A stretch of DNA of 64,000 nt from Dyella jiangningensis (GTDB taxonomy: Bacteria; Pseudomonadota; Gammaproteobacteria; Xanthomonadales; Rhodanobacteraceae), in contig CP007444.1 of the NCBI GenBank assembly GCA_000632805.1, positions 3,026,772 to 3,090,771 on the forward strand, read 5' to 3'. The notes under the pieces are model-generated. The model did no database searches. It had not been told where the DNA came from and worked only from the letters and a program-made list of their open reading frames with translations. The position numbers and the translations under genes were made by a program. Below are positions 2 to 14,900 of this stretch, one piece after another (position 1 is the first letter of the stretch; every line of letters starts with the position of its first letter).

Positions 2-2386
2 CTCATCGGCACCGTGCTGATCCTTATCGTCGGCGCGCTCGCGGCAGGATGGTTCCTGCTGGCCGGCAGCCGCGCCAGGCTGGATGGCGAAGTGCGCGTC
101 GCCGGGCTGGGCGATGCGGTGGCCATAACGCGCGACGCCTTGGGCACGGCCACGCTGCAAGGCAAGAGCCGCGACGACATCAGCTACGCGCTCGGCTACG
201 TACACGGCCAGGAGCGCTTCTTCGCGATGGACCTGATGCGGCGCCTGCCTGCCGGCGAGCTTTCCGAACTGGTGGGCGCCAAGGCGCTGGATACCGACAT
301 CAACCACCGCCGCCATCGCCTGCGCGCCGTGGCCGAAGCGGCGTATGCCGCGCTGCCGCCGGAGCAGAAGCGCACGCTCGACCTCTACGCATCGGGCGTC
401 AACGCCGGCCTCTCGCATCTGCACGTGAAGCCTTGGGAATACCTGCTGCTCAACACCAAGCCGCAACCGTGGCGTCCGGAGGATTCGTTCCTGGTGATCG
501 CGGCGATGTATCTGGACCTCAACGGTGACGGCCGCAACGAGCGCGAGCTGCACATGGCTCAGTTGCGCGCGACCTTGCCGCGACCCGTGGCAGATTTCCT
601 GCTGTCGCCCGATCCCGATTGGGAGGCGCCGCTCAAGGGTGATCTCTCGCGCCCGCCGGTTATCCCCGGTGCCGAGGTATTCGACCTGCGTCATGCAGAA
701 CCCGCCACGCGCGCCGACAGCACCGCGCTTACCGCCGCCCTGCTGCCGGCGCTCGACCAGGCGCGTCCCGGCAGCAACAGCTTCGCGGTCTCCGGCAACC
801 TGACCGAGACGGGCGCCGCCATTCTCGCCAACGACATGCACCTGAGCCTGCGTGTGCCGAACATATGGTTTCGCGCACGGCTGCGTTATCCCGATCCGAC
901 CGCGCCCGGCGGCCAGCGCGACGCCAGCGGCGTCACCCTGCCCGGCACGCCGGCCTTGGTCGTCGGTTCCAATGGCCAGGTGGCCTGGGGTTTCACCAAC
1001 AGCTATGGCGACTGGCTGGACTGGGTGCGCGTGCAACGCGATCCGAACGATGCCAGCCATTACAAGGTGGCTGACGGCTGGGCCAGCATCGAGACGCACG
1101 GCGAAATCATCCGCATCAAGGATGCGCCCAGCCATACGCTGAAAGTGGAAATGACGCGTTGGGGCCCGATCATGGGCAAGGACACCGACGGCACGCCCCT
1201 CGCGCTGGCCTGGGTGGGTGATCGTCCGCGCGGCTACAACATCAACGTGATGCAGCTGGAACACGCGCCCACCATGCGCGCAGCGCTGGATCTCGCCTCT
1301 ACCATGGGCATGCCGCCGCAGAACCTGCTGGCAGCCGATGCTGCCGGCCATATCGGCTGGACGATTACCGGCAACTGCATTCCGCTGCGCAAGGGTTTCG
1401 ACCCGAGGGGCCCGGCGGACTGGTCCACGCCGGATACGGGCTGGATGGGCTGCGCCGATGCATCGCAATACCCTCGTATCGAGGATCCATCGGATGGCCG
1501 CCTGTGGACGGCAAACAACCGCACCGTCGATGGCACCGAACTCGAAATGGTGGGCAACGGCGGCCACGATCTTGGCGCACGCGCACAGCAGATCCGCGAC
1601 GACCTGCGCGGCCGCAACAGCTTCACGCCCGGCAACCTGCTGGACATCCAGCTCGACAACCGCGCCGTGATGCTCACGCGCTGGCAGCGATTGCTGCAGG
1701 ACACGCTCGCCGGCACGCACGATCCCGGCCTGGAGCAGCTTCGCCAGCTCACCGCCACCTGGACCGGCCGCGCGGCCATTGAAAGCGTGGATTACCGTCT
1801 GGTGCGCGCCTTCCGCGACAAGGTGAAGGAAGCCACGCTTGCACCGTTCGTGGCGCAGGTGAAGGCCAGGTACGACGACTTCGCGTGGCCCGGCATGATC
1901 GACGCCGAAGCCGCGGTGTGGGCGATGCTGCGCGACCGCCCCGCCAACCTGCTCGATCCGAAGTACGACAACTGGAATGCCCTGCTCACCGCGGCCGCAC
2001 ACGAGGTGGTGGACGAACTCGGCAGCCAGCCCGGCGGCCTCGCCGCGCGTACGTGGGGCGAGTACAACCGCACGCAAATCCGCAACCCGCTGTCGCGTGC
2101 GCTGCCTTCCTTCCTCGGCCGCGCGCTCGACATGCCGGACGAACCCGTGGCCGGCGATCACAACATGCCGCGCGTCGTCTCGCCGGGGTTCGGCGCCTCC
2201 GAACGCCTGGACGTGATGCCAGGCCACGAGGCACAAAGCATCCTGCACATGCCGGGCGGACAGAGCGGCCATCCGTTGTCGCCTTACCACGGCGCCGGCG
2301 AAGAGGACTGGGTAAATGGACGTCCAACACCGCTGCTGCCGGGCCCGGACCAGCACACGCTGACGCTGATGCCGGCCTCGTCATAA
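2..2386 (+). CDS. Penicillin acylase family Ntn hydrolase (5' partial)
   Basis: Penicillin/acyl-homoserine-lactone acylase family (Ntn hydrolase), exported and matured by self-cleavage. The reading frame is open to the window edge. A GTG at 14 could start a 790-aa product, but the hydrophobic anchor begins at once and the frame is open upstream, so the true start probably lies outside. Counting from the GTG, residues 1-17 form a hydrophobic signal/anchor, followed by the alpha-subunit region (GYVHGQERFFAMD near residue 61). The conserved junction is PGSNSFAVSG, where Ser254 would become the beta-subunit N-terminal nucleophile, and NDMHL follows shortly after. Total length fits the family (about 750-850 aa). 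The natural substrate cannot be deduced: penicillin acylase, AHL acylase and other amidases share this architecture. It converges with the Tad locus. Confidence 0.85.
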   Translation, partial: LIGTVLILIVGALAAGWFLLAGSRARLDGEVRVAGLGDAVAITRDALGTATLQGKSRDDISYALGYVHGQERFFAMDLMRRLPAGELSELVGAKALDTDINHRRHRLRAVAEAAYAALPPEQKRTLDLYASGVNAGLSHLHVKPWEYLLLNTKPQPWRPEDSFLVIAAMYLDLNGDGRNERELHMAQLRATLPRPVADFLLSPDPDWEAPLKGDLSRPPVIPGAEVFDLRHAEPATRADSTALTAALLPALDQARPGSNSFAVSGNLTETGAAILANDMHLSLRVPNIWFRARLRYPDPTAPGGQRDASGVTLPGTPALVVGSNGQVAWGFTNSYGDWLDWVRVQRDPNDASHYKVADGWASIETHGEIIRIKDAPSHTLKVEMTRWGPIMGKDTDGTPLALAWVGDRPRGYNINVMQLEHAPTMRAALDLASTMGMPPQNLLAADAAGHIGWTITGNCIPLRKGFDPRGPADWSTPDTGWMGCADASQYPRIEDPSDGRLWTANNRTVDGTELEMVGNGGHDLGARAQQIRDDLRGRNSFTPGNLLDIQLDNRAVMLTRWQRLLQDTLAGTHDPGLEQLRQLTATWTGRAAIESVDYRLVRAFRDKVKEATLAPFVAQVKARYDDFAWPGMIDAEAAVWAMLRDRPANLLDPKYDNWNALLTAAAHEVVDELGSQPGGLAARTWGEYNRTQIRNPLSRALPSFLGRALDMPDEPVAGDHNMPRVVSPGFGASERLDVMPGHEAQSILHMPGGQSGHPLSPYHGAGEEDWVNGRPTPLLPGPDQHTLTLMPASS

Positions 2387-2456: not shown

Positions 2457-3104
2457 TCAGCGGCCTCGACGGGCGGTGGGCAGCATCACGCTCTTGGGTA
2501 TCGCGAAGACCTCGTCGTCGAGCGATACCTGCTCGAAACTCACGGTCTGCATGCGATAGCGGTGTTCGGCGAGGTCACGCGCGTCGAACGCGAGCACGAC
2601 GCCCGTGGTGGCATCGATCCAGAATTCGCCCTGGTCGGTGCCATGCGGACCGCCGCGTTCGGCGTGGCGGTAACGCCAGCCGGTCGCCTGTCGCCCGGCA
2701 ATCGTCTTGCTCTCCAGCTCCTGGCATGGAAAACCGAGATCCCAGCAGGGGCGTTTCGGATCAAGTCTGGTGACGCGACCGATCGCCACGCCACCCGCCG
2801 GTATGGCCTGGTGCGAGTTGGGCCGGATCAGCCAGGCATGATCCTTGTCGCGCAGGATGCGTCCACGCATGTCCGGTCCCGCGTCGAAGTCCACGCGCAC
2901 CTTGTCGCCGCTGAGCCAGGTGGTCAACACCATCGACCCTTCGCGCGCTACGCTCGCTGTGGCGGCACGAATGCCATCGCCCGTGATGACGGAAGCCAGC
3001 TTGATGTCCTTCGGCTCGTCCGCGGCAAGCGCACTTGGCAGCACGCAGGCCATGGCGAGCAGCGCAAGGCCGCGCCACAGGAGTCGCCGACTTCGCAACG
3101 TCAC
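2457..3104 (-). CDS. Exported protein, last gene of the Tad locus
   Basis: Predicted 215-aa secreted protein of unknown function. The start is a GTG at 3104 that overlaps the TGA of the upstream tadE-like gene (GTGA). The same frame is open far upstream, but that part is only the shadow of the neighbouring gene. Residues 1-27 are a clear signal peptide (LALLAMACVLPSALA then AADEP). The mature part is beta-rich, with LTTWLSGDKVRVDFD, a Cys pair near PCWDLGFPC, and a segment reading TTGVVLAFDARDL. This resembles small periplasmic beta proteins of the DUF4412/LolA-like type, but that is a weak impression. The 4-nt coupling suggests co-translation with the pilus genes. Confidence 0.7.
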   Translation of the reverse strand: MTLRSRRLLWRGLALLAMACVLPSALAADEPKDIKLASVITGDGIRAATASVAREGSMVLTTWLSGDKVRVDFDAGPDMRGRILRDKDHAWLIRPNSHQAIPAGGVAIGRVTRLDPKRPCWDLGFPCQELESKTIAGRQATGWRYRHAERGGPHGTDQGEFWIDATTGVVLAFDARDLAEHRYRMQTVSFEQVSLDDEVFAIPKSVMLPTARRGR

Positions 3105-3766
3105 GGCAGCAACCCGCTGTCGCGGATCGGCGTCTGCATGCGAACCATCGCCTGCGTGGCGATGGGCAGCCGCCCGCTCTCCAGCATGGCGACTTCCTGC
3201 GCACTCATGCCTTGATAGAAGGCCAGCCGGTAGACGCCGAGGATGATCTTGTCGATCACCGGCACGATCATCTTGTAGCCGTACACCACGCGGATCTTCA
3301 GCACGTTGGCATCCTGCACCGTCAACCCGCTGCGGCCGCCGGTCGATGTGGAGCGATAAGGCAGGCTGTCGTTGGGAATCGCATCGACGCCGTCGAACTG
3401 GCGCACCTTCCAGTCGGCGAATGCGGCCTTGGTCGGGCTGATGACCTGGATCTGCGCAGCGAGTGGATTGAGCGCATCGGCATAAGCTTTCGCATAGGCG
3501 CCCAGCACGGCGGCATTGCCTGCCTCGGTGCTGTAAAGCGGCATGAGGCCGCGCGCCAGGCCCACACGCATGGCATCCATTTCCACACCATGCGTGGCTC
3601 CGTTGCGCGCGGCTTCCAGCGCGGCATAGTCGACCAGGCTCTTGGCCCGATAGAACAGGATCATCTGGAAGATGCCCAGCAGGAACGTGCCGAACACGAC
3701 CATCACCACGCAGGTTTCGACCACGCTCTGGCCGCGCTGCCGCTGCCGGACGGAACGCCGCTTCAT
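3101..3766 (-). CDS. tadE: TadE-like pseudopilin (second copy)
   Basis: TadE-type minor pilin/assembly protein of the Tad secretion system, 221 aa. The N-terminus is basic (MKRRSVRQRQ), followed by RGQSVVE, a type IV prepilin-like motif with the conserved Glu, and a single hydrophobic helix (residues about 18-40). The remainder would be outside the inner membrane. A prepilin peptidase would be expected to cut near the RGQS junction; none is encoded in the window. The gene overlaps the TPR gene upstream by 4 nt (ATGA, 3763-3766) and the exported-protein gene downstream by 4 nt (GTGA), so it sits inside a tightly coupled operon. Another TadE-like protein is encoded at 11059-11955. Confidence 0.8.
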   Translation of the reverse strand: MKRRSVRQRQRGQSVVETCVVMVVFGTFLLGIFQMILFYRAKSLVDYAALEAARNGATHGVEMDAMRVGLARGLMPLYSTEAGNAAVLGAYAKAYADALNPLAAQIQVISPTKAAFADWKVRQFDGVDAIPNDSLPYRSTSTGGRSGLTVQDANVLKIRVVYGYKMIVPVIDKIILGVYRLAFYQGMSAQEVAMLESGRLPIATQAMVRMQTPIRDSGLLP

Positions 3767-4269
3767 GGTCCGCGGCCCGCATCCGTGGACGTTGGTGCGG
3801 GTGCGCGACTGCCATCGGACGCCGACGTGAGGCGCGCAATGCCATCCACAAGCTGCGTGCTCTGCTGCTGCAGCGTGGGATCGTTGCCGTTTGCATCGAC
3901 CGCGCTTTCCGAGAATGCAGCCGCCGCCTGGCGCAGACGCAACACGCCCAGGTTGTGCCAGGCCTTCGCGTGCTTGGGCTCGATCTTCAACGCCTGCTGA
4001 TAGGCATCCACCGCCTGCTCCGGCTGCCCCATGCGCACATACGCATTGCCGAGGCGAAACCAGGCGTCGGCATTGGTCGGCAGCTGGTTGGCGAGCTTCT
4101 GGTAGCTCGCCAGCGCCTGTTCGGGACGTCCGCCTGACGCGTCGCGCTCGGCCTGCTCCTGCAGCGCCTTGATGCCAGCCAACGTGGGCTTGGGTGAACT
4201 GGACGATGCACAGGCAGCGAGCAAGGCGCAGGCCAGTGCTGTCATCGCGATGCGCAGCGTGTCACTCAT
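3763..4269 (-). CDS. tadD: TadD-like TPR lipoprotein
   Basis: Predicted outer-membrane or periplasmic lipoprotein with tetratricopeptide repeats, matching TadD, a pilotin-like assembly factor of Tad systems. I use the ATG at 4269 (MSDTLRIAMT); an in-frame ATG six codons upstream is possible. A signal peptide ends in the lipobox LLAAC, followed by a Ser-rich linker (ASSSSPKP). Two good TPR units follow: one around PEQALASYQKLANQLP, the other around AWFRLGNAYVRMGQPEQAV, then AWHNLGVLRLRQA. The C-terminus is low-complexity. It overlaps the next gene by 4 nt and lies 3 nt from the DUF192 gene's end. Confidence 0.8.
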   Translation of the reverse strand: MSDTLRIAMTALACALLAACASSSSPKPTLAGIKALQEQAERDASGGRPEQALASYQKLANQLPTNADAWFRLGNAYVRMGQPEQAVDAYQQALKIEPKHAKAWHNLGVLRLRQAAAAFSESAVDANGNDPTLQQQSTQLVDGIARLTSASDGSRAPAPTSTDAGRGP

Positions 4270-4619
4270 GCGGACTCCCATATCCATGCGTCTCCCAGGC
4301 TGGGCTTCAGGCGGCTCAGCGCGCCCGATGCGAATTCAATGGTTTGGTGGGCGCCGCGCGCGCGGCGCATTCGCCAGGGCTCGACATGCTCATGGCAATC
4401 GATCACACCGCCGCTGCGGTCGAGAAACACCAGGTCGAGCGGATACCGCATGCCGATCGTGTGGACGCTGCCGCATGGCACCAGCCACAAGGCTTCGCCG
4501 CGTTCGACACTCAGCGGCGCGCGTCCCAGTAACCCGCGCAGGCGCGACCAGGGTCGATCAGCGCGCCAGGCCTTCGTTGCAATCAATTGCCCACCGCTTC
4601 GGATGACGCCGCACCTCAC
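4266..4619 (-). CDS. DUF192 family protein inside the Tad locus
   Basis: 117-aa DUF192 protein. The start is a GTG at 4619 overlapping the tadC stop (GTGA); a longer open frame upstream in this frame is the shadow of tadC. Family hallmarks seen are RLRGLLGRAPL, then LVPCGSVHTIGMRYPLDLVF (the usual C-x-S-I-H-T-x-x-M-x-x-x-I/L-D core), and the DRSGGVIDC strand. DUF192 folds into a small beta barrel of unknown biochemical role and is often exported, but no signal peptide is visible here. Its coupling between tadC and tadD suggests a role in, or regulation with, the pilus system; that is inference. Confidence 0.8.
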   Translation of the reverse strand: MRCGVIRSGGQLIATKAWRADRPWSRLRGLLGRAPLSVERGEALWLVPCGSVHTIGMRYPLDLVFLDRSGGVIDCHEHVEPWRMRRARGAHQTIEFASGALSRLKPSLGDAWIWESA

Positions 4620-5506
4620 AAAATGCCCTCCTCCTGCATGCGCAGGAAGATGAAGTAGCCGAGCATCAGGAAGATCAGCGGAAAGAAGAACATCACCAGC
4701 GGCAGCATCATCTTGACGGGCGCTTCCAGCGCCAGTTTCTCCGCGCGCAGGAAACGTTCCTCGCGGCGTTGCGATGCCTGGGCGCGCAAGGTGTCGCCCA
4801 GGCTGGCCCCGACGCGATCGGCCTGGATCAGCGTGCCGGTGAAGCTCGAGATCTGCGGCATGTCCATGCGTTCGGACATGCGCGACAGCGCCTCGGAACG
4901 CGGCAGCCCCGAGCGCACGTCGCGCAGCAGACGGGTAAATTCCTGCCCCAACGGGCCTGGCGGACCCTTCTGCGTGGCCTGCTCGATGCCGCCCGTGACG
5001 TTGAGCCCCGCCTCCACCGCCATCGTGATGAAGTCGAGGTAGACCGGGAGGTCCTTGATCACCTGGCGTCGCCGTTTGTTGCGACGCTCGCCCAGCCACA
5101 GGTTCGGGTAAAACCAGCCCAGCACCGCACCGAAGCCGATCGCGCTGACATAGAGCGTCAGCCCCTGCGCCTTGAGCAGCCCGAGCAGCAGCCACATGAA
5201 CAGCGCCACCAATCCCGCGGCCACGACGCGCAGGCCCCACAACTGTTCCGGGCTGAGCACGAAATCCTGTCCGGCCGTCTGCAGTTCGCGATGCGCGCGC
5301 TCCAGTTTGTCCGGCGTCAGGCGTGGACCGATCACGAAGGTGGCCGCGTTGACCAACGGCCAGATCATGCGCAGCCCGAACGGCAGCGGATCCTGGAAAT
5401 GGCGATCGGCCTGGGGCACTTCGCGCATGAAGCCATACACCGACCAGATGACCAGGCCGATGCAGGCGCCCGCGCATACGGAAAGCACGATGAGCAGGAA
5501 GGTCAT
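4616..5506 (-). CDS. tadC: TadC inner-membrane platform protein
   Basis: Type II secretion GspF-family protein, the TadC half of the TadB/TadC inner-membrane platform for Flp pilus assembly. The chosen start, ATG 5506 (MTFLLIVLSVC), forms an ATGA overlap with the tadB stop; an ATG nine codons earlier is less likely. 296 aa. Hydrophobic segments lie near the N-terminus (residues 2-24), around residues 100-140, and at the C-terminus (MMLPLVMFFFPLIFLMLGYF). The central cytoplasmic T2SSF domain includes DLPVYLDFITMAVEAGLN and GTLIQADRVGASLGDTLR, typical of the family. Next to tadB and tadA, as in other Tad clusters. Confidence 0.92.
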   Translation of the reverse strand: MTFLLIVLSVCAGACIGLVIWSVYGFMREVPQADRHFQDPLPFGLRMIWPLVNAATFVIGPRLTPDKLERAHRELQTAGQDFVLSPEQLWGLRVVAAGLVALFMWLLLGLLKAQGLTLYVSAIGFGAVLGWFYPNLWLGERRNKRRRQVIKDLPVYLDFITMAVEAGLNVTGGIEQATQKGPPGPLGQEFTRLLRDVRSGLPRSEALSRMSERMDMPQISSFTGTLIQADRVGASLGDTLRAQASQRREERFLRAEKLALEAPVKMMLPLVMFFFPLIFLMLGYFIFLRMQEEGIL

Positions 5507-6345
5507 ATGTCGATACTCATGATCTTGCGACACATGCGGTAACCCAGGTACTCCATCACCGCGCAGATGGCGATGACCACCCAGCCGATGGGCGTGTGGT
5601 ACATGGCCCGCATCGTGTCGGGATAGGCGAACGTCAGAAAGGCGATCAGCCCGGCCGGCATCATGGCCATCACGATGCCTTGCAAACGTCCCTGCGCGGT
5701 GAGCGACTTCACCTTGCCTTCCATGATCTGCCGTCGCCGCAAGGTGTCCGAGAGCGATGCGAGAATCTCGGCAAGATTGCCGCCGACCTCGCGCGAGATG
5801 CCTACCGCCGACACGAACAGCGCCACGTCCTGCACCGGCACGCGCTCGTTGAAATGCGTCAGCGCATCATCGAGCTTCACGCCCATGCGCTGTTCGCGCA
5901 GCACCAGTGCGAACTCCTGCGCGAGGGGCGGTTCGATATCGCGCGCCAGGCTTTCGAGCGCAGGCGTAAACCCCAGGCCTGCCCGCATGCTTCCGGCAAT
6001 CATCATGAGTCCGTCCGGCAGCTGCGACTGGATGCGATCCACACGCCGCTGGCGCATCCACGTGTAGACCTTTTTCGGCAGCACGAAGATCAGCACCAGC
6101 ACGGCGCCCGCCAGCAACGGATTGCCGGTCGCCGCCCACAACACCAGGGGCAGCAGCACCATCGCGATCACGTTGAAGCGGAACAGGTTGCGCGTGTCCA
6201 TGAACATGAACATGTCGGCGAGGTTGAACCTCGCCTGCTCGGTGAACGTCTCCTGGTAACGCCCCCAGAACACGGTGGACGAGCGCGCCATCAGGAACCC
6301 CACCAGGGTCACGCAAGCGAATACGGCGATGGCGATGCCAAGCAT
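5503..6345 (-). CDS. tadB: TadB inner-membrane platform protein
   Basis: GspF-family membrane protein, the TadB half of the platform. ATG at 6345 (MLGIAIAVFACV) begins 1 nt after the tadA stop; the open frame upstream of it is shadow. 280 aa. Hydrophobic segments occupy residues about 1-17, 60-95 and two near the C-terminus (LQGIVMAMMPAGLIAFLTFA and GWVVIAICAVMEYLGY). The T2SSF core shows QLPDGLMMIAGSMRAGLGF and LFVSAVGISREVGGNLAEIL. Translationally coupled to tadC through a 4-nt overlap. Confidence 0.92.
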   Translation of the reverse strand: MLGIAIAVFACVTLVGFLMARSSTVFWGRYQETFTEQARFNLADMFMFMDTRNLFRFNVIAMVLLPLVLWAATGNPLLAGAVLVLIFVLPKKVYTWMRQRRVDRIQSQLPDGLMMIAGSMRAGLGFTPALESLARDIEPPLAQEFALVLREQRMGVKLDDALTHFNERVPVQDVALFVSAVGISREVGGNLAEILASLSDTLRRRQIMEGKVKSLTAQGRLQGIVMAMMPAGLIAFLTFAYPDTMRAMYHTPIGWVVIAICAVMEYLGYRMCRKIMSIDI

Positions 6346-6346
6346 G

Positions 6347-8050
6347 TCAGCGCTCCTCGCCTTCGGGACGGAAGATGCCCAGGTCGACGGACACCCCCCG
6401 GGCCGCCAGTTCCTCGTAGAACTCCGGGACCGAGCCCGTGGCGGCGAACTGGCCGCGTACCTTGCCACCCGGCCCACCCTGGTCGCGCGCGCGGAACACG
6501 AACAGGTCCTGCGTCTGGATGGTGCCGCTCTCGATGCCGGTGATCTCGCAGATGTGCGTGATCTTGCGCGAGCCACAGGGGAAGCGTCGCTGGTGGATGA
6601 TGAGATCGATGGCCGACGCGATCTGCTCGCGCACCACCACCATCGGCAGGTCCATGCCCGACATCATCACCATCACCTCAAGGCGCGACAGTGCATCGCG
6701 CGGCGAGTTGGCGTGCGCCGTGGTCAGCGAACCCTCGTGCCCGGTATTCATCGCCTGCAGCATGTCCAGCGCTTCGCCGCCACGGCACTCGCCCACCACG
6801 ATGCGATCCGGTCGCATGCGCAAAGCGTTGCGCACCAGGTCGCGGATGGTGATCAACCCCTTGCCCTCCACATTGGCCGGCCTCGACTCCATGGCCACCA
6901 GATTGGGCTGGTTGAGCTTGAGTTCGGCCGCGTCTTCGATGGTGACGATGCGTTCGTGGTCGGGAATGAAGTTGGAAAGAATATTCAGCAGCGTGGTCTT
7001 GCCCGAGCCGGTGCCGCCCGTGACGACCACGTTGCGGCGCTCGCGCACCGCCACCTGCACGAATTCCAGCATCTCGCGGTTGATCGAGCCGTACTTGAGC
7101 AAGTCCTCGCCACTGAGCTTGCGCTTGCTGAACTTACGGATGCTGATGCTCGGACCACGCAGCGCGACCGGCGGAATCACGGCATTCACGCGCGAGCCAT
7201 CGGTAAGGCGGGCATCGACCATCGGCGAGCTTTCGTCGATGCGTCGGCCGATGGGCGCAACGATACGCTCGATGGCGGCGATCACCGCCTTGTCGTTGGT
7301 GAAGATCACCGGCGACTTCTCGATGCGGCCGGAGCGCTCGATGAAGATCTCGTCGTGGCAGTTCACCATCACTTCGGTCACGGTGTCGTCTTCGAGCAAA
7401 TCCTCGAGCGGCCCCAGGCCAATGGCCTCGTCGAGCACTTCCTTGGCCAGGCGACGGCGATTGATGGTCTTGGGCAGTTCCTCGACGAACTCGCGATCGA
7501 TGATCTCCTCGATCAGCGCCGCCGTCTTGCTGCGAAGCTCCTCATCGCTCATGCCCCGTACGTCCACGCGTCGAAGATCCATCTGCCGCACCAGTGATTG
7601 ATGCACGCGCGTGCGCCACTCCAGCATGTCCGGCGGCATCACCACCGTGGAAGGCACGTTGGTGGCCTCGGCGCGTGTCGCTCCTGGCTCCGGCAGGTCG
7701 GCCTGCGGCTCATGGTTCGACGCCGCCTGCAACGGTCCTTTCACATGGTCGCTAGGCGCTTCGGCCAGCACGCGCAGGCGATAGGCGCCGATCAGTACGA
7801 TGTCGTCGCGCTGCAGCGGGCCGTGTTCGCTCTGCACCCGCTCGCCGTTGACCGTGATGGGCGCGCGGCTGCTCAACACCTCGATGAACACACCCATCTT
7901 GCGCGCACTGAGCGTCGCGTGTTCCTTGGCGATGTTCCATCCCTGCAGGATGACCAGATTGTCCTCGCCTCGCCCGATGCCGCAGCTCGTATTCAGGCAC
8001 CGCACCTGGCGCGGGTCGCGGTTGGCCGTTTCGATCAAAACCTCGAACAT
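6347..8050 (-). CDS. tadA: TadA/CpaF secretion ATPase with N-terminal FHA domain
   Basis: Motor ATPase of the Tad pilus (VirB11/CpaF type), 567 aa. Residues about 1-100 form a forkhead-associated (FHA) domain: GIGRGEDNLVI, then IAKEHATL, then ITVNGERV. The usual pThr-contacting Ser of the S-x-x-H motif is Ala here (AKEH), so phospho-threonine binding is uncertain. A proline-rich linker follows. The ATPase domain carries Walker A GGTGSGKTT at about residues 342-350, the Asp-box region VTIEDAAELKL, the RIVVGECRGGEALDML segment and the His box GSLTTAHANSPRDAL. Most TadA proteins lack the FHA domain; FHA-CpaF fusions occur in some lineages. It may stand in for regulatory input normally supplied by a separate protein. 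Confidence 0.93.
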   Translation of the reverse strand: MFEVLIETANRDPRQVRCLNTSCGIGRGEDNLVILQGWNIAKEHATLSARKMGVFIEVLSSRAPITVNGERVQSEHGPLQRDDIVLIGAYRLRVLAEAPSDHVKGPLQAASNHEPQADLPEPGATRAEATNVPSTVVMPPDMLEWRTRVHQSLVRQMDLRRVDVRGMSDEELRSKTAALIEEIIDREFVEELPKTINRRRLAKEVLDEAIGLGPLEDLLEDDTVTEVMVNCHDEIFIERSGRIEKSPVIFTNDKAVIAAIERIVAPIGRRIDESSPMVDARLTDGSRVNAVIPPVALRGPSISIRKFSKRKLSGEDLLKYGSINREMLEFVQVAVRERRNVVVTGGTGSGKTTLLNILSNFIPDHERIVTIEDAAELKLNQPNLVAMESRPANVEGKGLITIRDLVRNALRMRPDRIVVGECRGGEALDMLQAMNTGHEGSLTTAHANSPRDALSRLEVMVMMSGMDLPMVVVREQIASAIDLIIHQRRFPCGSRKITHICEITGIESGTIQTQDLFVFRARDQGGPGGKVRGQFAATGSVPEFYEELAARGVSVDLGIFRPEGEER

Positions 8051-8059
8051 GCATCCACC

Positions 8060-9409
8060 TCAATCGACGATATCGCTGCCGGCCACCTTGCGCATGTCGT
8101 CGCGCAGGTGGTCGCTCTTTTCGATCAATTCATGGTTCTTGGGCGACGCGGCATCGATCACCACCGGCGTCACGAAGATCACCAGGTCGGTGCGGTTGCG
8201 CTGGAAATTGCGTGAACGGAACAGCGAACCGAGGATCGGCACATCGCCCAGGCCAGGCATCTTGTCGAAGGTCTTGGAAGCCGTGGCATCCACCAGGCCT
8301 GAAATCACGATGGAATCGCCTTCGTGCACGTTGAGCTGCGCGCTGGCGCGACGCGTGATGAATCCGGGGTAGCCCTGCACGTTGACGCTGGGGTCGATGC
8401 GGCTGATCTCGGTCTCGATGTCGGTGGAGATATCGCCGCTGGCGCTCACGATGGGGGCGATGTGCAGCTTGATGCCGTACTGCTTGTACTCCACCGTGGT
8501 TTCACCCAGGCCCTGCGTGATGGGAATGGGCACTTCGCCACCCACCAGGAAGTCGGCAATGCCGCCGCTGCGCGCGGCCAGCTGCGGCGAGGCCAGCTCC
8601 CATGCGTTGCCGGTCTGCTCCATGATGTTGATCTGCGATCCGATCGACGTGGCGATGCCGAAGAAGGACGCGGTTCCCGGTACGCGCAATGGCAACTTCG
8701 CCGCCTGTCCGGCCGCATCGATGCCCTTGAAGGCGGGATCGGTGAGGCGATAGTAGGGATTGGTTACCCAATCGTGCACCAGCCCGCCGCCGGGGCCGGC
8801 GATCATGCTGTCCCACTTGATGCCAAGGTCGCTCATGGCTTTCTTGTCGAACTCCATGATGCGCACCTGCATCATCACCATCGGCTTCATGTCGACCGCG
8901 TTCGTGCTGGTGAAATCCAGCACCTGCGGATAGAGCTTCTTGATCGCCGCCACCTTGGCCGCATCGCCCGGCGAAAGATCGTTGCCCGTCATCACCACGT
9001 TGCCACCCACCGCATTGACGCGGATGGCGCTGCCATCGCCGACCAGTCGGCCGACAAGATCCGCCGCCTGGTCCGCGTTGCCCGCCACCACGTGCACGCT
9101 CACGCTGCGCTGTGTGCCATCGCTCATCCACAGCTGCACCGACGTGTCGCCCGGTTCGTTGGCGATGAGCACCATTTCCTTGGTCCCGATCACCTTGACC
9201 TGCAGCAGCTTGCCGTCGCCTACGGCAACGCGGCTGAGCGCGCCCGGCGCCTCCTGCACCAGGGCCTGTCCCGCATACATGCTCACGGCATCCGGGATGA
9301 CCTTGCTGGCGCCCTGCGCGGCCGCCTCCGATGGCCTGGTCGATACGCCCACTCCCATGACGAACATGCCGAGCAGCAATACGTTTCCGATTCGCTTGAT
9401 CGCTTCCAT
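8060..9409 (-). CDS. rcpA: RcpA/CpaC outer-membrane secretin
   Basis: Secretin forming the outer-membrane channel of the Tad pilus, 449 aa. The N-terminal signal peptide (VLLLGMFVMGVGVSTRPSEA) is followed by the pilus-assembly N-domain (residues about 35-110, with LTVP-like strand ISRVAVGDGKLLQVKVIG), a BON-like stretch, then the secretin domain from about residue 190 to 425. Diagnostic parts are SGGIADFLVGGEVPIPI and the terminal LGDVPILGSLFRSRNFQRN followed by TDLVIFVTPVV. Directly follows cpaB (2-nt gap) and precedes tadA by 9 nt. Confidence 0.93.
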   Translation of the reverse strand: MEAIKRIGNVLLLGMFVMGVGVSTRPSEAAAQGASKVIPDAVSMYAGQALVQEAPGALSRVAVGDGKLLQVKVIGTKEMVLIANEPGDTSVQLWMSDGTQRSVSVHVVAGNADQAADLVGRLVGDGSAIRVNAVGGNVVMTGNDLSPGDAAKVAAIKKLYPQVLDFTSTNAVDMKPMVMMQVRIMEFDKKAMSDLGIKWDSMIAGPGGGLVHDWVTNPYYRLTDPAFKGIDAAGQAAKLPLRVPGTASFFGIATSIGSQINIMEQTGNAWELASPQLAARSGGIADFLVGGEVPIPITQGLGETTVEYKQYGIKLHIAPIVSASGDISTDIETEISRIDPSVNVQGYPGFITRRASAQLNVHEGDSIVISGLVDATASKTFDKMPGLGDVPILGSLFRSRNFQRNRTDLVIFVTPVVIDAASPKNHELIEKSDHLRDDMRKVAGSDIVD

Positions 9410-9411
9410 GC

Positions 9412-10188
9412 TTACTCTTTCCCGCCAATGATGAATTGGATGCCCGAACCACTGACGACGGGTCGCCCCATCCGCAGGAGATCCGCCTTGCTGAGCGTCT
9501 CCAGGCCAAACGCTTCCTTGTTGCCCGCGCTGCGGAGCATGACGCGCAGCTCGCCGACCTTCATGGCCATGCCGAGCCGTTGTGCGTCGTTGGGGGTCAG
9601 GCCCAGCGTCAGGTTGGAATAGCTCTCATCGTCGCCCGACGGCTTGACGCCCTGCGCACGCTTGCCGGTGGCCAACACCAGCACGTCGCCCAGCAGCGGA
9701 CGGATCTGGTCCTTGCCGGCCGCATCGCCCGAGAGCAGCAGCATGATGTCCACGTGATCGCCCGGGACGATCAGGCCCGACACCGAGCCCGATTCATCCA
9801 CGCTGATGGTGTAGGCGACCTTGCCCGGGTCGATCACCGTCGAGAAATGATCGCTGACGAGATCGATCGCGCTTCCCGGGATCGGTGCGCCTTTCGTCAG
9901 GGGAGAGCGCAAGAGCTGCCCGAGATAGTTCTGGTAGTTCTCCGGGGTCAACGCATCGGCAGGCACGAATTCCTGCGGTACGTCGCGCGTGGCAACATCG
10001 TTTTCGCTGAGCAGCGCGCCTTTTTCAAGGTCGTTGACGGGAACCACTACGGTGCGCGTCGCCTGCGGCGCGACCTGGGTACGTTCGGCCACCTTGTTGT
10101 TGATGTAGTGCACCGCCATGAAACTGGCTGCGATGCCCAGCAGGATGGCAACCCCGAGAAACAGCAGGTTGCGGTTGATCTTTGGCAT
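9412..10188 (-). CDS. rcpC: RcpC/CpaB pilus assembly protein
   Basis: Flp pilus assembly protein CpaB/RcpC, 258 aa, periplasmic with an N-terminal membrane anchor. Residues 6-28 are hydrophobic (LLFLGVAILLGIAASFMAV). A SAF-like domain follows: VVPVNDLEKGALLSENDVATR, then GKVAYTISVDESGSVSGLI and PGDHVDIMLLLS, typical for the family. The C-terminal half (LTLGLTPNDAQRLGMAMKVG) matches the RcpC C-terminal domain. Located just before rcpA, as in most Tad loci, and coupled by a 2-nt gap. Confidence 0.92.
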   Translation of the reverse strand: MPKINRNLLFLGVAILLGIAASFMAVHYINNKVAERTQVAPQATRTVVVPVNDLEKGALLSENDVATRDVPQEFVPADALTPENYQNYLGQLLRSPLTKGAPIPGSAIDLVSDHFSTVIDPGKVAYTISVDESGSVSGLIVPGDHVDIMLLLSGDAAGKDQIRPLLGDVLVLATGKRAQGVKPSGDDESYSNLTLGLTPNDAQRLGMAMKVGELRVMLRSAGNKEAFGLETLSKADLLRMGRPVVSGSGIQFIIGGKE

Positions 10189-10203
10189 ACGAGTTCCCTT
10201 CCC

Positions 10204-10407
10204 TTAGATCCAGCTGACTGAAAGTGCGTAGACGAAGCTGCTGTAGGCTTCCTTGAGGCTCTGCACCAGCTTCGGAATCGCATCCGGATTGGCCACCAGC
10301 ACGAGCACGAGAAACAGCACCACGATGGTGTATTCCGCCACCGCACTGCCACGCTGATATCGCCGGGTCACTGATCGCGAAAGCTGGCGCATGGTTTGCC
10401 TCATCAC
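10204..10407 (-). CDS. Small pilin-like protein (second Flp/TadE-type)
   Basis: 67-aa protein starting at a GTG (10407) in a GTGA overlap with the gene upstream; ATGs at 10404 and 10392 are alternatives. It has a basic N-terminus, then YQRGSAVAEYTIVVLFLVLV, which looks like a type IVb prepilin motif (G, then A/S, with EY at the position corresponding to Flp E-Y), one hydrophobic helix and a short amphipathic tail with no Cys pair. It is distinct from the abundant Flp candidate at 14610-14900 and could be a minor pilin. No named family is recognised with confidence. Confidence 0.7.
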   Translation of the reverse strand: MMRQTMRQLSRSVTRRYQRGSAVAEYTIVVLFLVLVLVANPDAIPKLVQSLKEAYSSFVYALSVSWI

Positions 10408-11075
10408 GGTTGCAACACGTTGATCAACACCTGCGACTGGCTGGCGCCTTCACGCATGACGAGCAGGGTGAGCTTGCTGTCGCCGCGCTCGTAGCGCATG
10501 ACGCAGTCGTTGCCGCCACAGTTGCCTGCATCGCTCACCTTCCAGCCGTCGGCGAGCAGCCTTTCGCGGAAATACGCGCCGTTCTGCGTCGGCGAAAGGC
10601 TGTTGCGCATGGCGACCGTTCGCGCCGGCACGCTGTCGTCCGGGTAGGCAATGTCGTTGAATACCTTGGAACCCGCGGGTGCGGGCAGACCCTTGCCCGG
10701 CACGAAGTGCTTCGGCGCGGAGGCGACGTCCACGATGCCGATGTTGCCCTTGCTCCCCGAACCGCTGCTGCTCACCTGCACGGTGATGTAGTAGTCGCCA
10801 TCGCGATGGCCGATCACTTCGGCCGGGCCCATGCGATTGACGACGACTTCCTTGCCCCAGGCCTTGCGGTAGAAATCGATCAGTTCGTCCTGGCTGCGCG
10901 GCGAGACGAAGGTCTGCGCGCGCATGTCCAGGCCATTGAAGACGATGTGCTGCGCGACCTCGTTCGTGCGCGTCCCCGACGGCAGCGGCGGACTGGGCCA
11001 TGAGCTTGCGTGCGCCGTGCAGGACAGCAACACGCAGGCGACCCAGGCGAGCCGGTGCTTAACGCTTGTCCGCAT
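10404..11075 (-). CDS. Exported protein of unknown function in the Tad locus
   Basis: 223-aa secreted protein. Signal peptide at residues 1-23 (LAWVACVLLSCTAHA then SSWPSPPLP). The mature part contains QDELIDFYRKAWGKEVV, a DYYITVQV strand, and a Cys pair in GNCGGNDCVMRY near residue 190. The layout (a short amphipathic helix, a fine beta core, then a Cys-containing strand) is loosely reminiscent of the region before the OmpA domain of the divergent gene at 15267, which also has a YR/F helix and a Cys pair. No family can be named. Overlaps the tadE-like gene by 17 nt and the small pilin-like gene by 4 nt. Confidence 0.7.
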   Translation of the reverse strand: MRTSVKHRLAWVACVLLSCTAHASSWPSPPLPSGTRTNEVAQHIVFNGLDMRAQTFVSPRSQDELIDFYRKAWGKEVVVNRMGPAEVIGHRDGDYYITVQVSSSGSGSKGNIGIVDVASAPKHFVPGKGLPAPAGSKVFNDIAYPDDSVPARTVAMRNSLSPTQNGAYFRERLLADGWKVSDAGNCGGNDCVMRYERGDSKLTLLVMREGASQSQVLINVLQP

Positions 11076-11955
11076 ACTTCACCAGCTTGTCGGACGGCAC
11101 GACGTCCGGCGCCATCTTGCCAAGTTCGAACTCGTTGAAGCCAGGAGTAAAGATGTCATTGACAAAAGGAATGCTGCCCAACAGGTGCATCACGTTGTTG
11201 GTGACGTCGTCGAACTTGTCGCCTACCAGAGACGTCGGGACCAGCGGACGTATCACATTGCGCACGGTGCGGTTGCTCGCGCCGCTGATGCCCTTGCCGT
11301 CGCGATCCTCACCGCCCCCGGCCGCGTCCCAAGCGTCGGCCAGCAAGACGGTCCGCGATGAGAAATCCAGTTTCATCGTGTCCAGCGGATCGAGATAGGC
11401 GAGCGGGCTGCCATCCCTGCCAAGAATGACCTCGGGCCTGGCGTGCACTTCGGCGGTGACTAGGCCCTTGGTGTTCGGAGGAAGATTGCCCAGCGACTTC
11501 GTGGCCTTGCCGATGATTGCCAGTCCCTTGTCGAGGTAGCCCGGCGAACTGTCCTGCTTGTAGACCTGCAAGGTCACCGCGTTGGGCTTGAGCAACTCGT
11601 TGCCCGCGAACGTGGTGAGCATGGCGTCGTTGAACCTGCCTGGCGTGTTTGCGCCGCTACGCAAGGTGTCCTTGCTGTCGCCGTACTGGCGCACGCGTAG
11701 GTTTTGTTCGACGCGTCCGTGCGAGGGGAGCTGCTCGCCGATCAGGCTGCGATCCACCGTGGCCGCCCACGCGGCCTGGCGTGCCGCCGCCTGCGTCTGC
11801 TGCTTCACATGGATGTATTGGCCAAGCAGCATGATGCCTGCCGCCAGCGGCACGAGCACGATGCACGCCACCGCCATTTCGATGAGGCTTTGCCCACGTT
11901 GCCATTGCCTCGATCCAGGCCGGTGGCGTCGGGTCATCCCATGCTTCGCGTCCAT
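11059..11955 (-). CDS. TadE/TadG-like pilus assembly protein
   Basis: 298-aa Tad-locus pseudopilin-like protein. The start at ATG 11955 has a good ribosome binding site (GGAGGGAG). After a basic N-terminus comes RGQSLIEMAVACIVLVPLA, the TadE-type signature with the conserved Glu, and a single transmembrane helix, then QYIHVKQQTQAAARQAAW. The remaining 240 residues are polar and presumably periplasmic. Larger than the usual TadE (about 180 aa) and closer in size to TadE/TadG hybrids. It overlaps the exported-protein gene by 17 nt. Confidence 0.75.
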   Translation of the reverse strand: MDAKHGMTRRHRPGSRQWQRGQSLIEMAVACIVLVPLAAGIMLLGQYIHVKQQTQAAARQAAWAATVDRSLIGEQLPSHGRVEQNLRVRQYGDSKDTLRSGANTPGRFNDAMLTTFAGNELLKPNAVTLQVYKQDSSPGYLDKGLAIIGKATKSLGNLPPNTKGLVTAEVHARPEVILGRDGSPLAYLDPLDTMKLDFSSRTVLLADAWDAAGGGEDRDGKGISGASNRTVRNVIRPLVPTSLVGDKFDDVTNNVMHLLGSIPFVNDIFTPGFNEFELGKMAPDVVPSDKLVKYADKR

Positions 11956-11980
11956 TGCTCCCTCCGTGAAACGTCTGACT

Positions 11981-12859
11981 TCAGTTCGCCGTGGTCAGCG
12001 ATATGCCGGAGGGCACCTCGAACACCTTGCCGTCGATGGCTGCGCCTACCGTCATTTTTTCCGTAGTCCACTGTTTGCCCGTGCCCTGCGGCGGATGACG
12101 CCAGAGCAGGATGCTGTCGAGGCGGCCATTGAGACCTTCGGTGTCGTCGACCACATCGGAGGAGAAACCCCACTTCCTGCCGCCGCTCCACACGCACGAT
12201 TCACCGATGCCGGGCTGATCGAGGCGCTTGCATGGCTGGCCTGCGGCGCTGTCCGTGCCCGCGGACCGCGCCATCAGGTCACCCTGCCCCTGCTTGTTCA
12301 ACTGCGCCGCCACGGCTGCACGCAGCGCGGCATCGTCGTCGCTTTCCGCGGGCTTGGCGGCGTGCTCGGCGGCGGCATCCGTGCCGACTTCCCGCACGAC
12401 GCCTTCCGAAGGCTGGCGCGTGCCGGTCTTGCCGATGAGGTCGACGGTCACCGTCTCGCCGGGCTTGATGATGGCCAGCGTCGACTCGTGCACGGGCTTG
12501 AACTGGCAGGTGCCCGCGGTCTGGTAATCCCATCGGTCCGCGCGCTCGGAGAGTCGCGCGCCTTCGTACCACACGTCATAGAACGTTCGACCCAACTTTC
12601 CCACCACGTCGTCGCCAAGTGGCTGGGTCGGCAACGAGCCTTTGCGACAGTCAGCCAGCGCCTGGCGATAGTTTTCCTCGCTGGCGGGTCGACCATCGCG
12701 CAACACCACCATGGTCTGGCTGACGTGGATGGGCGGTGTCGCGTTGGCGGCATTCTTTGCGCCATCGGTGCCCGCGTCATGATTGCCACTGGCCAAACAT
12801 GCCACGAGCGGAAGCGCGACGAATGCGGACGCCAGCCAGGTCAGGGATCGATGCTGCAT
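11981..12859 (-). CDS. Putative lipoprotein in the Tad locus
   Basis: 292-aa predicted lipoprotein of unknown function. I choose ATG 12859 because GAGG lies 8-9 nt upstream; in-frame ATGs at 12877 and 12955 exist but lack a good ribosome site. Signal sequence (LTWLASAFVALPLVAC) ends in a lipobox Cys. The mature part contains a conserved-looking CRKGSLPTQPLGDDVVGKLG stretch, four further Cys residues (in CRKG, GTCQFK, QPCKRL and ESCVW, possibly two disulfides) and an Ala/Lys/Glu-rich low-complexity segment in the middle. It sits between the two largest pseudopilin-like genes. No domain recognised. Confidence 0.7.
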   Translation of the reverse strand: MQHRSLTWLASAFVALPLVACLASGNHDAGTDGAKNAANATPPIHVSQTMVVLRDGRPASEENYRQALADCRKGSLPTQPLGDDVVGKLGRTFYDVWYEGARLSERADRWDYQTAGTCQFKPVHESTLAIIKPGETVTVDLIGKTGTRQPSEGVVREVGTDAAAEHAAKPAESDDDAALRAAVAAQLNKQGQGDLMARSAGTDSAAGQPCKRLDQPGIGESCVWSGGRKWGFSSDVVDDTEGLNGRLDSILLWRHPPQGTGKQWTTEKMTVGAAIDGKVFEVPSGISLTTAN

Positions 12860-12894
12860 GAATTTCCTCGATTGCATTAAAAGAGATCGCCGGA

Positions 12895-14445
12895 TCATTT
12901 GGCGCAGGCCGCTGCACCGCCGTAACTCGCGGCCACTTCCCAGCGCACGGCGCACGGCGTGTCGACCAGGCGCACTTGCCAGTAGGGGCTGAAAAGACTG
13001 CCAAGCTCCCGGCGTGAATCGATCACGTTCGCAAACAGCTCGCGGGGCCGGCTGAAGTACACCTGCGCCGTGGACATGGCCGTCATGCTGTCCGCAACCG
13101 CCTGATCCTTGGTCTGGAAATCGGGTGGACCGCCGATGCCCTGCACGTTCTCGCTGGTGCGCACGGTATTCATGGGCTGCTCGACGAGCACGGTGAACAC
13201 GGGACCGACGTCAACCTTGTTGACGCCGTTCTGCGTCGCGTTGCGCCCGTTGTCGTAGGGCACTGTGGCCTTGTCGGCCGCGACGTCGTTGTAGTCCTGC
13301 AGGCCCGGGGAAGTTCCCGAGTAGCTTTTCAGCCACGCTTTGCTGGTACCACCCATGGCGGGCGAGGACAGCACGCTGCCGCTCGCCGCATGATTGTCGA
13401 GGCCGCCTGCGTAGCGGCTGTAATGGCCGCGATCGATTTCATAAGGAGAGTCCCAGCCACGGCCACTGTTGATTCCGGGGGACGCGACTGAGCGGAAAGA
13501 GCCCGGTGTCCGCGCCACGGCGGCCGCGCCGCCCCAAGCCAGGGGCACATCGAGATCTACTGGAGGAATAAGGGAGCTGAACTTCACATTGAGCGTGTCC
13601 ACGCCCACCCAGTCGCGGTAATTCACCAGATCAGTACCGCCGCGTTTGTGGATGGGGCCGATGCTGCCGTTGCGTTGTTTCGAAAAGCCATCGCGCGCTT
13701 CCATCACCACGTTCGCCAGGCGATCGGCGTCCGCCGTACGGCGCCCTGCGGTGGGAATGGTGTAGCGTCTGGCGTACTGCGCCGCGGCGATTGCATCAGT
13801 CTCGAGCAACCCCATGCCCCGCACGCCAACGGTCGCCTTGTTGTCGGTATTCAGCTGAACGATTTTCCGCGCGAGCAGCAGCGACGATTGAGGCTCGCCG
13901 ATGGCAATGAGCTGCGAAGCATCCGAGTACGCGGCATCCAGCGCGCTGATGGCGGTGACGCCTGCGGAGAACGCCACCTGCATGCCGTCGCGAAGTTCCT
14001 GCACTGCGGTCTTTACCTCGCTCAATGCGGAAACGATTTCCTGCAGCGCCGCCCCGACTTCCGCGCCAACGATGCTTATGTCGAAAATGACCGCGATCGC
14101 CTGCACCGCATCCTTGAAGTTGTCGGTGCCGCGCAGCATGTAATTGGTCCAGGAATACCAGCTCACCATCTGTGCCACGGCGACCTGGTTCGCTACGGTG
14201 GCGCGATTCATGTACGCGATGAGATTGAACGCGCGCGCCTGCTCCACGCCCACGCTGTAAGCGGCGGCATCGGCGGTGTTCACGAGCTCGACTTTTTTCG
14301 AAACCGTCTGGCCCGTGTTGAAAAGCACGATCACGCCAAGGCACAGCACCAGCAAGGAGATGACGGCCAGTATCAGCGCCTGCCCCTTCGCCTTCCCTTG
14401 TACGAAGCCTGCACCCCCAGGCTCAGCCCGTCGCAGCATCTTCAT
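12895..14445 (-). CDS. tadG: TadG-like protein with N-terminal Tad domain
   Basis: 516-aa Tad-locus protein. Residues about 20-65 hold a putative Flp pilus assembly TadG N-terminal domain: KGQALILAVISLLVLCLGVI, then VSKKVELVNTADAAAYS, where NTADAAA is the conserved signature. A single N-terminal membrane helix anchors a long periplasmic/extracellular region. Unlike classic TadG no von Willebrand A domain is apparent. It ends CGGAAACAK-like with a terminal Cys (GGAAACAK). First long gene after the flp pilin, separated from it by 164 nt containing a perfect hairpin. Confidence 0.8.
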   Translation of the reverse strand: MKMLRRAEPGGAGFVQGKAKGQALILAVISLLVLCLGVIVLFNTGQTVSKKVELVNTADAAAYSVGVEQARAFNLIAYMNRATVANQVAVAQMVSWYSWTNYMLRGTDNFKDAVQAIAVIFDISIVGAEVGAALQEIVSALSEVKTAVQELRDGMQVAFSAGVTAISALDAAYSDASQLIAIGEPQSSLLLARKIVQLNTDNKATVGVRGMGLLETDAIAAAQYARRYTIPTAGRRTADADRLANVVMEARDGFSKQRNGSIGPIHKRGGTDLVNYRDWVGVDTLNVKFSSLIPPVDLDVPLAWGGAAAVARTPGSFRSVASPGINSGRGWDSPYEIDRGHYSRYAGGLDNHAASGSVLSSPAMGGTSKAWLKSYSGTSPGLQDYNDVAADKATVPYDNGRNATQNGVNKVDVGPVFTVLVEQPMNTVRTSENVQGIGGPPDFQTKDQAVADSMTAMSTAQVYFSRPRELFANVIDSRRELGSLFSPYWQVRLVDTPCAVRWEVAASYGGAAACAK

Positions 14446-14556
14446 GTCGATTCATCCTGCATCCATCACCAGCCCACGTCCCTGCCGGAAACAGCTATAC
14501 GAGCGGGTCATGTTCGCGACGCCGTCGTTGCAAGGCTCAGGCAAAAGTTCACCCGA

Positions 14557-14582
14557 GGCGCGCCGCCATCAGGCGGCGCGCC
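14557..14582 (-). terminator. Perfect hairpin between flp pilin and the rest of the locus
   Basis: GGCGCGCCGCC (14557-14567) and GGCGGCGCGCC (14572-14582) are perfect 11-bp arms around a 4-nt loop, just downstream of the pilin gene on its strand. No U-run follows directly, so it is more likely an mRNA-stabilising or partial-termination stem that lets the pilin be expressed at higher level than the assembly genes. Function is inference; the stem is directly visible. Confidence 0.55.
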
Positions 14583-14609
14583 CTTATCGCTGACCAAGGG
14601 ATGGCGAAA

Positions 14610-14900
14610 TTACTGCGCCGTCGCGTTGTTGTAGCTCTTGAGGGTCTTGTCCTTCGTTCCCTCGGAGTGGGCCTTGTTGCCCTGATTGCCAGCGCGGCTG
14701 ATGTCCTGCGTTGCACTCTGGCCGGACAGCTCTCGGGCCATGCCGCCTATCTGTGCGCGGGCCGTTCCGCCGAAATAGGTCACGGCCGCGATCGCTGCGA
14801 TCGCGATGAGTGCGGTGATGATGATGTATTCCGTCATGCCCTGGCCACGCTGACGGATGCGGTACGAGGTGTTGCGGTTGCTCTGACGCTTCGGGTCCAT
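14610..14900 (-). CDS. flp: Flp-type pilin (major pilin candidate)
   Basis: 96-aa Flp/Fap pilin precursor. Start ATG 14900 (MDPKRQSNRN) has an AGGGG ribosome site; an upstream in-frame ATG at 14954 is less likely. The leader is basic and ends RQRGQG, followed by MTEYIIITALIAIAAIAAV, the classic Flp prepilin site (cleavage after Gly, Glu at +3, Tyr at +4) and hydrophobic helix. The mature pilin would be about 75 aa, slightly long for Flp, with a polar Ser/Gln/Lys-rich tail (SGQSATQDISR...). First gene of the locus, with a 366-nt divergent region upstream. Confidence 0.88.
   Translation of the reverse strand: MDPKRQSNRNTSYRIRQRGQGMTEYIIITALIAIAAIAAVTYFGGTARAQIGGMARELSGQSATQDISRAGNQGNKAHSEGTKDKTLKSYNNATAQ

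Follow-up and report, generated by a model that had tools for sequence, protein, structure and literature searches.

Gene content and layout of the Tad locus

The window analysed here is a 64,000-nucleotide stretch of Dyella jiangningensis DNA, located at positions 3,026,772 to 3,090,771 of a genome available as a single contig of 5.4 Mb. On its minus strand, between positions 2457 and 14900, lies a tightly packed and, judged from its sequence, intact operon for a Tad pilus, in which the motor ATPase TadA bears an FHA domain. A spacer of 164 bases follows the first pilin gene; elsewhere, across the 14 genes from tadG on, the genes overlap or are separated by 25 bases at most. The genes are listed below in their order on the minus strand, followed by a divergent neighbour.

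14610 to 14900, minus strand: pilin 1, Flp-like, with the motif G^QGMTEY
12895 to 14445, minus strand: TadG-like protein (PF13400, E 8.5e-8)
11981 to 12877, minus strand: putative lipoprotein, no family
11059 to 11955, minus strand: TadE-like pseudopilin 1 (PF07811)
10404 to 11075, minus strand: orf223, the subtype's signature gene, encoding a secreted protein with two similar domains
10204 to 10407, minus strand: pilin 2, a second small pilin-like protein named from its sequence, with the motif G^SAVAEY
9412 to 10188, minus strand: CpaB/RcpC (PF16976, SAF)
8060 to 9409, minus strand: RcpA/CpaC secretin with an N-terminal pilus domain (PF00263, PF13629)
6347 to 8050, minus strand: TadA/CpaF motor ATPase, with FHA at about residues 1-95, a linker at 99-138 and the CpaF core (PF00437, PF00498)
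5503 to 6345, minus strand: TadB platform protein (PF00482)
4616 to 5533, minus strand: TadC platform protein (PF00482)
4266 to 4619, minus strand: DUF192 protein (PF02643)
3763 to 4287, minus strand: TadD-like tetratricopeptide repeat (TPR) lipoprotein (TPR matches)
3101 to 3766, minus strand: TadE-like pseudopilin 2 (PF07811)
2457 to 3104, minus strand: secreted protein, no family
15267 to 16256, plus strand: OmpA-domain protein with DUF4892

Pfam matches above the cut-off were obtained for CpaB, RcpA, the FHA-bearing TadA, TadB, TadC, the TPR protein, the two TadE-like proteins and the Tad/TadG protein, in agreement with the gene names of a first-pass annotation of this DNA. Pilin 1 was named by its motif, its PF04964 match (14.5 bits) being below the cut-off of 32.2. 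The platform is split into TadB and TadC, with one T2SSF domain each. Among eight window proteins submitted to NCBIfam, five had no match. The genes at 10204-10407, 4266-4619, 11981-12877, 10404-11075 and 2457-3104 are additional to those named in that annotation. The operon is flanked by an acylase gene (14-2386, plus strand) and by the OmpA-domain gene, both within the window. A tadV or tadZ gene of the same operon lying just outside the window was looked for and is ruled out, since both ends of the operon lie inside it.

The first-pass annotation had also reported that the locus lacks TadZ and a prepilin peptidase, and this was confirmed. The genome has two A24 peptidases, one at 534 kb and the other at 4,051 kb, both outside the window, and a sole full-length TadZ match, at 4,055 kb. 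Apart from the peptidase at 534 kb, the search of the rest of the genome for CpaA/TadV and TadZ found both only in a second, canonical Tad locus (L004, 4,042,000-4,061,999), which comprises TadV, RcpA, TadZ, a TadA without FHA, and TadC. Its TadV, at 4,051.7 kb, is 180 residues long and contains PF01478 only; its TadZ matched PF16968 below the cut-off and MinD weakly, and scored 414 bits with the TadZ profile described below. The genome holds pairs of RcpC, T2SS-T3SS_pil_N and A24 matches, and the TadA proteins of the two loci share 44-45% identity over the core.

Conservation of the FHA-type locus and absence of TadZ and TadV

Two genome samples were searched, one of 200 genomes from the order and one of 398 Pseudomonadota genomes from the phylum, and a contig scan added 59 named loci. 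The stretches from both samples and the named loci gave a comparison set of 92 TadA-bearing loci, which were scored with profiles. Because the window's TadA served as the query for the FHA loci, its relatives are favoured in the sample, and some entries are near copies (L069-L071, L081/L083). PF13614 (AAA_31) failed to detect the TadZ of L004 and so served poorly as a test for this protein; TadZ was instead sought with a TadZ protein as query and later with a profile of 17 rows.

An FHA-bearing TadA was found in 50 of the 92 loci, mostly from Gammaproteobacteria in the wide sense. Flanking sequence exceeded 8 kb on both sides in 33 of these and 4 kb upstream in 48. Profile searches beside TadA detected neither TadZ nor TadV in any of the 50 FHA loci, whereas the same profiles found TadZ in 36 and TadV in 23 of the 42 others. 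A further scan of 44 loci in all returned TadZ in 40 and an FHA-bearing TadA in none; among its non-FHA picks, made by hand across families, TadZ was present in 36 of 40. The four TadZ-less picks (L198, L200, L204 and L205, all from one family) are lone tadA genes, around which no other Tad genes were found in 20 kb with the queries used. Six loci of the comparison set showed neither FHA nor TadZ (L126, L130, L131, L132, L133 and L134). TadA is cut by the contig end in L131 and L132, and only TadA and a weak TadB were seen in L133 and L134 (Lachnospiraceae).

Within the order sample, nine genomes, including the window's, encode a TadA at least 61% identical (61-78% within the order); eight of these match over the full length, FHA included, and FHA is also present in the ninth (G117). 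The nearest named relative by TadA is Dyella sp. EPa41 (93%). For the window's 15 genes, 13 or 14 were matched in each of seven loci from two families, and 11 in G117, which belongs to a third family and lies on a cut contig; tadD was not found in five genomes of family f2 in this gene matching. Relatives of pilin 1 occurred in all eight loci and those of pilin 2 in seven. In the phylum sample, TadA was detected at E 1e-80 in 167 of the 398 genomes, and the FHA type was present in at least 11 (G000, which is the window's genome, G554, G564, G388, G391, G579, G381, G487, G514, G508 and G365). On these sequence comparisons, the window locus is a conserved subtype of the Tad pilus with extra genes of its own, and its first description as reduced and rearranged is not supported, the arrangement being that of the subtype.

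The signature gene orf223

The profile of orf223 matched 44 of the 50 FHA loci and none of the 42 others. Five of the six FHA loci without it have less than 4.3 kb upstream, where the gene may be cut off, and the sixth is L102. The DUF192 profile also matched 44 of the 50 FHA loci, against 13 of the 42 others.

The orf223 protein has no Pfam or NCBIfam match. Its structural model (predicted local distance difference test, pLDDT, 92) contains two similar domains, each arranged as strand-strand-helix-strands. No Foldseek match reached E 0.001, and in a second structure comparison the C-terminal half resembled PA1624 (Z 11.1, root-mean-square deviation 2.0 over 100 residues). Weaker likenesses to SciW, Flpp3 and PsbP-like folds (Z 7 to 9) may mean only a common arrangement, and none of these comparisons points to a function. 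Because of its operon position and signal-like N-terminus, our guess is that orf223 is an envelope part.

The FHA domain, the TadA motor and TadZ

The window TadA is 41-43% identical to solved CpaF, its best solved relative. The TadA model had a middling mean pLDDT of 71, with low confidence in the linker at residues 99-138. A phmmer search of the PDB with the FHA part as query returned nothing at E 0.01; in a Foldseek search with the TadA model, the FHA part was unseen among the 50 matches listed, all of which were taken by the motor core.

A tree of the TadA core was built from 89 of the 92 loci (L125, L131 and L132 were dropped). The 49 FHA members all grouped in a single clade (FastTree support 0.91) that has L126 and L130 as its neighbours, and the switch was therefore one event. 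L125 (9983-11867), from Cupriavidus necator UYPR2.512, encodes its TadA in two separate frames.

The 49 FHA domains fused to TadA were aligned, after five non-fused rows were dropped from 54. In the GR motif, all 49 retain the Gly and 15 the Arg, which is replaced by Lys in the other 34. The SxxH Ser is kept in 8, and the His and the Asn in 46 each. Residues R27 and S41, which we take to be the phosphate-contact pair of the phosphothreonine pocket, occur together only in L102, and the pocket is incomplete in the other 48. The window domain keeps the Arg and has Ala in place of the Ser.

The first-pass annotation had suggested that the FHA domain may replace TadZ. In its direct form, six FHA domains around the hexamer would do the work of the CpaE ring, perhaps with phosphothreonine signalling. 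The sharp exclusion of TadZ from FHA loci, which the 44 further loci repeat from the other side, fits this idea, as do the six CpaE dimers that have been fitted around CpaF in PMC13170226. The exclusion stands, but it reflects one clade of one origin, a point that also bears on the explanation preferred below. The rarity of a complete phosphate-contact pair also argues against signalling of this kind. Furthermore, locus L130 of Pseudidiomarina salinarum (5194-13525) has the same gene order, a TadA of 404 residues without FHA, and one A24 peptidase in its genome, and TadZ is absent from the locus and, at E 1e-20, from the genome; TadZ can thus be absent without FHA, unless L130 is inactive. Replacement of TadZ by FHA is plausible, but in this direct form it appears less likely than not.

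When 28 whole genomes were scored with the profile of 17 TadZ, none of the 12 FHA-only genomes (8 from the order sample and 4 from the phylum sample) exceeded 108 bits, their matches covering the ATPase part; 15 genomes with a usual TadZ reached at least 384 bits. The second locus of G388 scored 138 bits over the full length.

Prepilin processing

The peptidase had been expected to be encoded elsewhere and shared, and the peptidase counts support this. One A24 peptidase was found in each of the eight FHA-only genomes of the order sample and in each of the four of the phylum sample (G391, G579, G381 and G508), and one RcpC in all 12. In each case the sole A24 peptidase is PilD, whose gene adjoins pilC and coaE in the 12 genomes as well as in G000 and G388. 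The eight searched genomes of the order sample with canonical TadA, G000 included, have two A24 peptidases each. Among 20 other canonical genomes, from the phylum sample, 18 have at least two, and G208 and G242 have one. Five genomes with both Tad types (G554, G564, G487, G514 and G365) encode a further short A24 peptidase, located each time in a locus that also bears TadZ. In G388, which combines an FHA locus with a TadZ-bearing one (L165), PilD is the only A24 peptidase. An open frame of 534 residues with two A24 matches was also seen in G487 (L158, 8413-10014).

A single A24 peptidase was likewise found in four named genomes (Rhodanobacter spathiphylli, Dyella sp. EPa41, Vreelandella utahensis and Motilimonas pumila), where TadZ matches at E 1e-20 covered the ATPase part only; these matches are the sole basis on which the four are taken to lack another Tad locus. 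Three Paraburkholderia genomes and Cupriavidus necator showed more A24 peptidases and more TadZ matches. PilD service to the FHA-type Tad, where PilD is alone, is therefore well supported by elimination, and PMC4471445 describes prepilin peptidases as generally broad, with exceptions.

For the window genome, it could be argued that the pilins of the window locus are matured by the TadV of the second locus at 4,051.7 kb instead of PilD. TadV is indeed at hand there, but the 12 genomes in which an FHA-type locus has no second A24 peptidase indicate that TadV is not needed for this type, and we regard this alternative as unlikely. The two enzymes differ in their domains: PilD contains PF06750 and PF01478, and the TadV of L004 contains PF01478 only, in line with the description of TadV in PMC10191384 as being without PilD's methylation domain.

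Comparison with known systems

The window locus shares with the canonical Tad/Flp systems (type IVc; Cpa of Caulobacter and Tad of Aggregatibacter) the Flp-like pilin, TadE/TadG, CpaB, RcpA, TadA, TadB, TadC and the TadD-like TPR protein. It differs from them in having no TadZ/CpaE and no TadV/CpaA, and in having an FHA domain on TadA and orf223. The motor architecture is that of class III CpaF (FHA and a disordered linker), which PMC12019362 places mostly in betaproteobacteria, the source also of L094-L096, L099 and L125. The main text of that paper is silent on CpaE, TadZ and CpaA, whereas the class is tied here to their absence.

In the Kil system of Myxococcus xanthus, KilF bears an N-terminal FHA domain as the window TadA does (PMC8460266). 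Kil is described in such accounts as having no TadG or TadD, its own peptidase KilA, and a short secretin without N0. The window locus has a PF13400 protein and a TPR protein and no peptidase, and its secretin carries an N-terminal PF13629 domain, possibly the counterpart of N0. Membership of Kil is ruled out by the TadG-like and TPR proteins. PilD has been proposed as a further Kil peptidase, KilA being dispensable for KilP (PMC8460266 and PMC12075869). In L102 (9986-14373), from a deltaproteobacterial metagenome-assembled genome, a further protein with two FHA matches adjoins the FHA-bearing TadA, an arrangement reminiscent of Kil.

Mannose-sensitive haemagglutinin (MSHA) pili, which are not a Tad machine, have loci without a peptidase and may use that of another system, according to PMC6668835. 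The Tad detection model presented there allows tadV to lie apart, and its final form no longer accepts PilD for TadV. FHA on CpaF and the possible use of PilD by Kil are thus already published. In the open-licence literature searched, neither the signature gene nor a link between the FHA class and the absence of TadZ and TadV was found, and as far as our searches show, both are new.

A Tad subtype that would depend on PilD

Taken together, these results probably describe a distinct, conserved Tad (type IVc) subtype, whose prepilins would be cut by PilD, the peptidase of the type IVa pili; in the window genome, the second Tad locus might contribute its TadV. The N-terminal A24_N domain present in PilD is absent from TadV, so that pilins of this subtype may carry an N-methyl group that TadV-processed pilins lack. 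It is a weaker part of this explanation that the motor would run without a CpaE/TadZ ring, and that the FHA domain, borne on a flexible linker, would anchor the hexamer to the envelope machine or some other partner and would mostly not read phosphothreonine in the classical way.

Several observations weigh against this explanation. L130 lacks TadZ without having FHA, and L126 (cut contig, 9.2 kb) lacks TadZ and has a TadA N-terminus unmatched by the FHA profile. Among the 36 TadZ assignments of the further sample, two are weak (L187, 61 bits; L194, 42 bits). An own peptidase is also missing for the TadZ-bearing G208 and G242 and for the TadZ-bearing locus of G388, a peptidase from outside family A24 is possible, and PMC4471445 points to the FppA paper (de Bentzmann 2006) for an exception to peptidase promiscuity.

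A stronger version can be offered only tentatively: a separate Tad lineage that has abandoned both the positioning ATPase and a dedicated peptidase, in which a motor-borne docking domain replaces the CpaE ring and the pilins are made and N-methylated by PilD. If this were true, Tad and type IVa pili would share one maturation step. Finally, although two usual Tad genes are missing, decay of the locus toward inactivity is highly improbable given its open frames, its overlapping genes, the same gene set across families and the level of TadA identity within the order.

The FHA-type loci of at least 11 of the 398 Pseudomonadota genomes, the window's included, are a natural exception in which the roles of TadZ and of the CpaF FHA domain can be tested. 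They also allow a test of whether PilD alone can serve a Tad pilus, which was precluded in Myxococcus by the essentiality of pilD (PMC12075869).

Other genes of the locus

The iterated pilin profiles matched each other's targets (165 genes for pilin 2), and no pilin counts were drawn from them. The putative lipoprotein and the secreted protein at the end of the operon are present in 9 and 8 of the 50 FHA loci, respectively. The N-terminal part of the divergent OmpA/DUF4892 protein occurs in 12 of the 50 FHA loci and in none of the 42 others, and it is therefore possibly an envelope part of the system.

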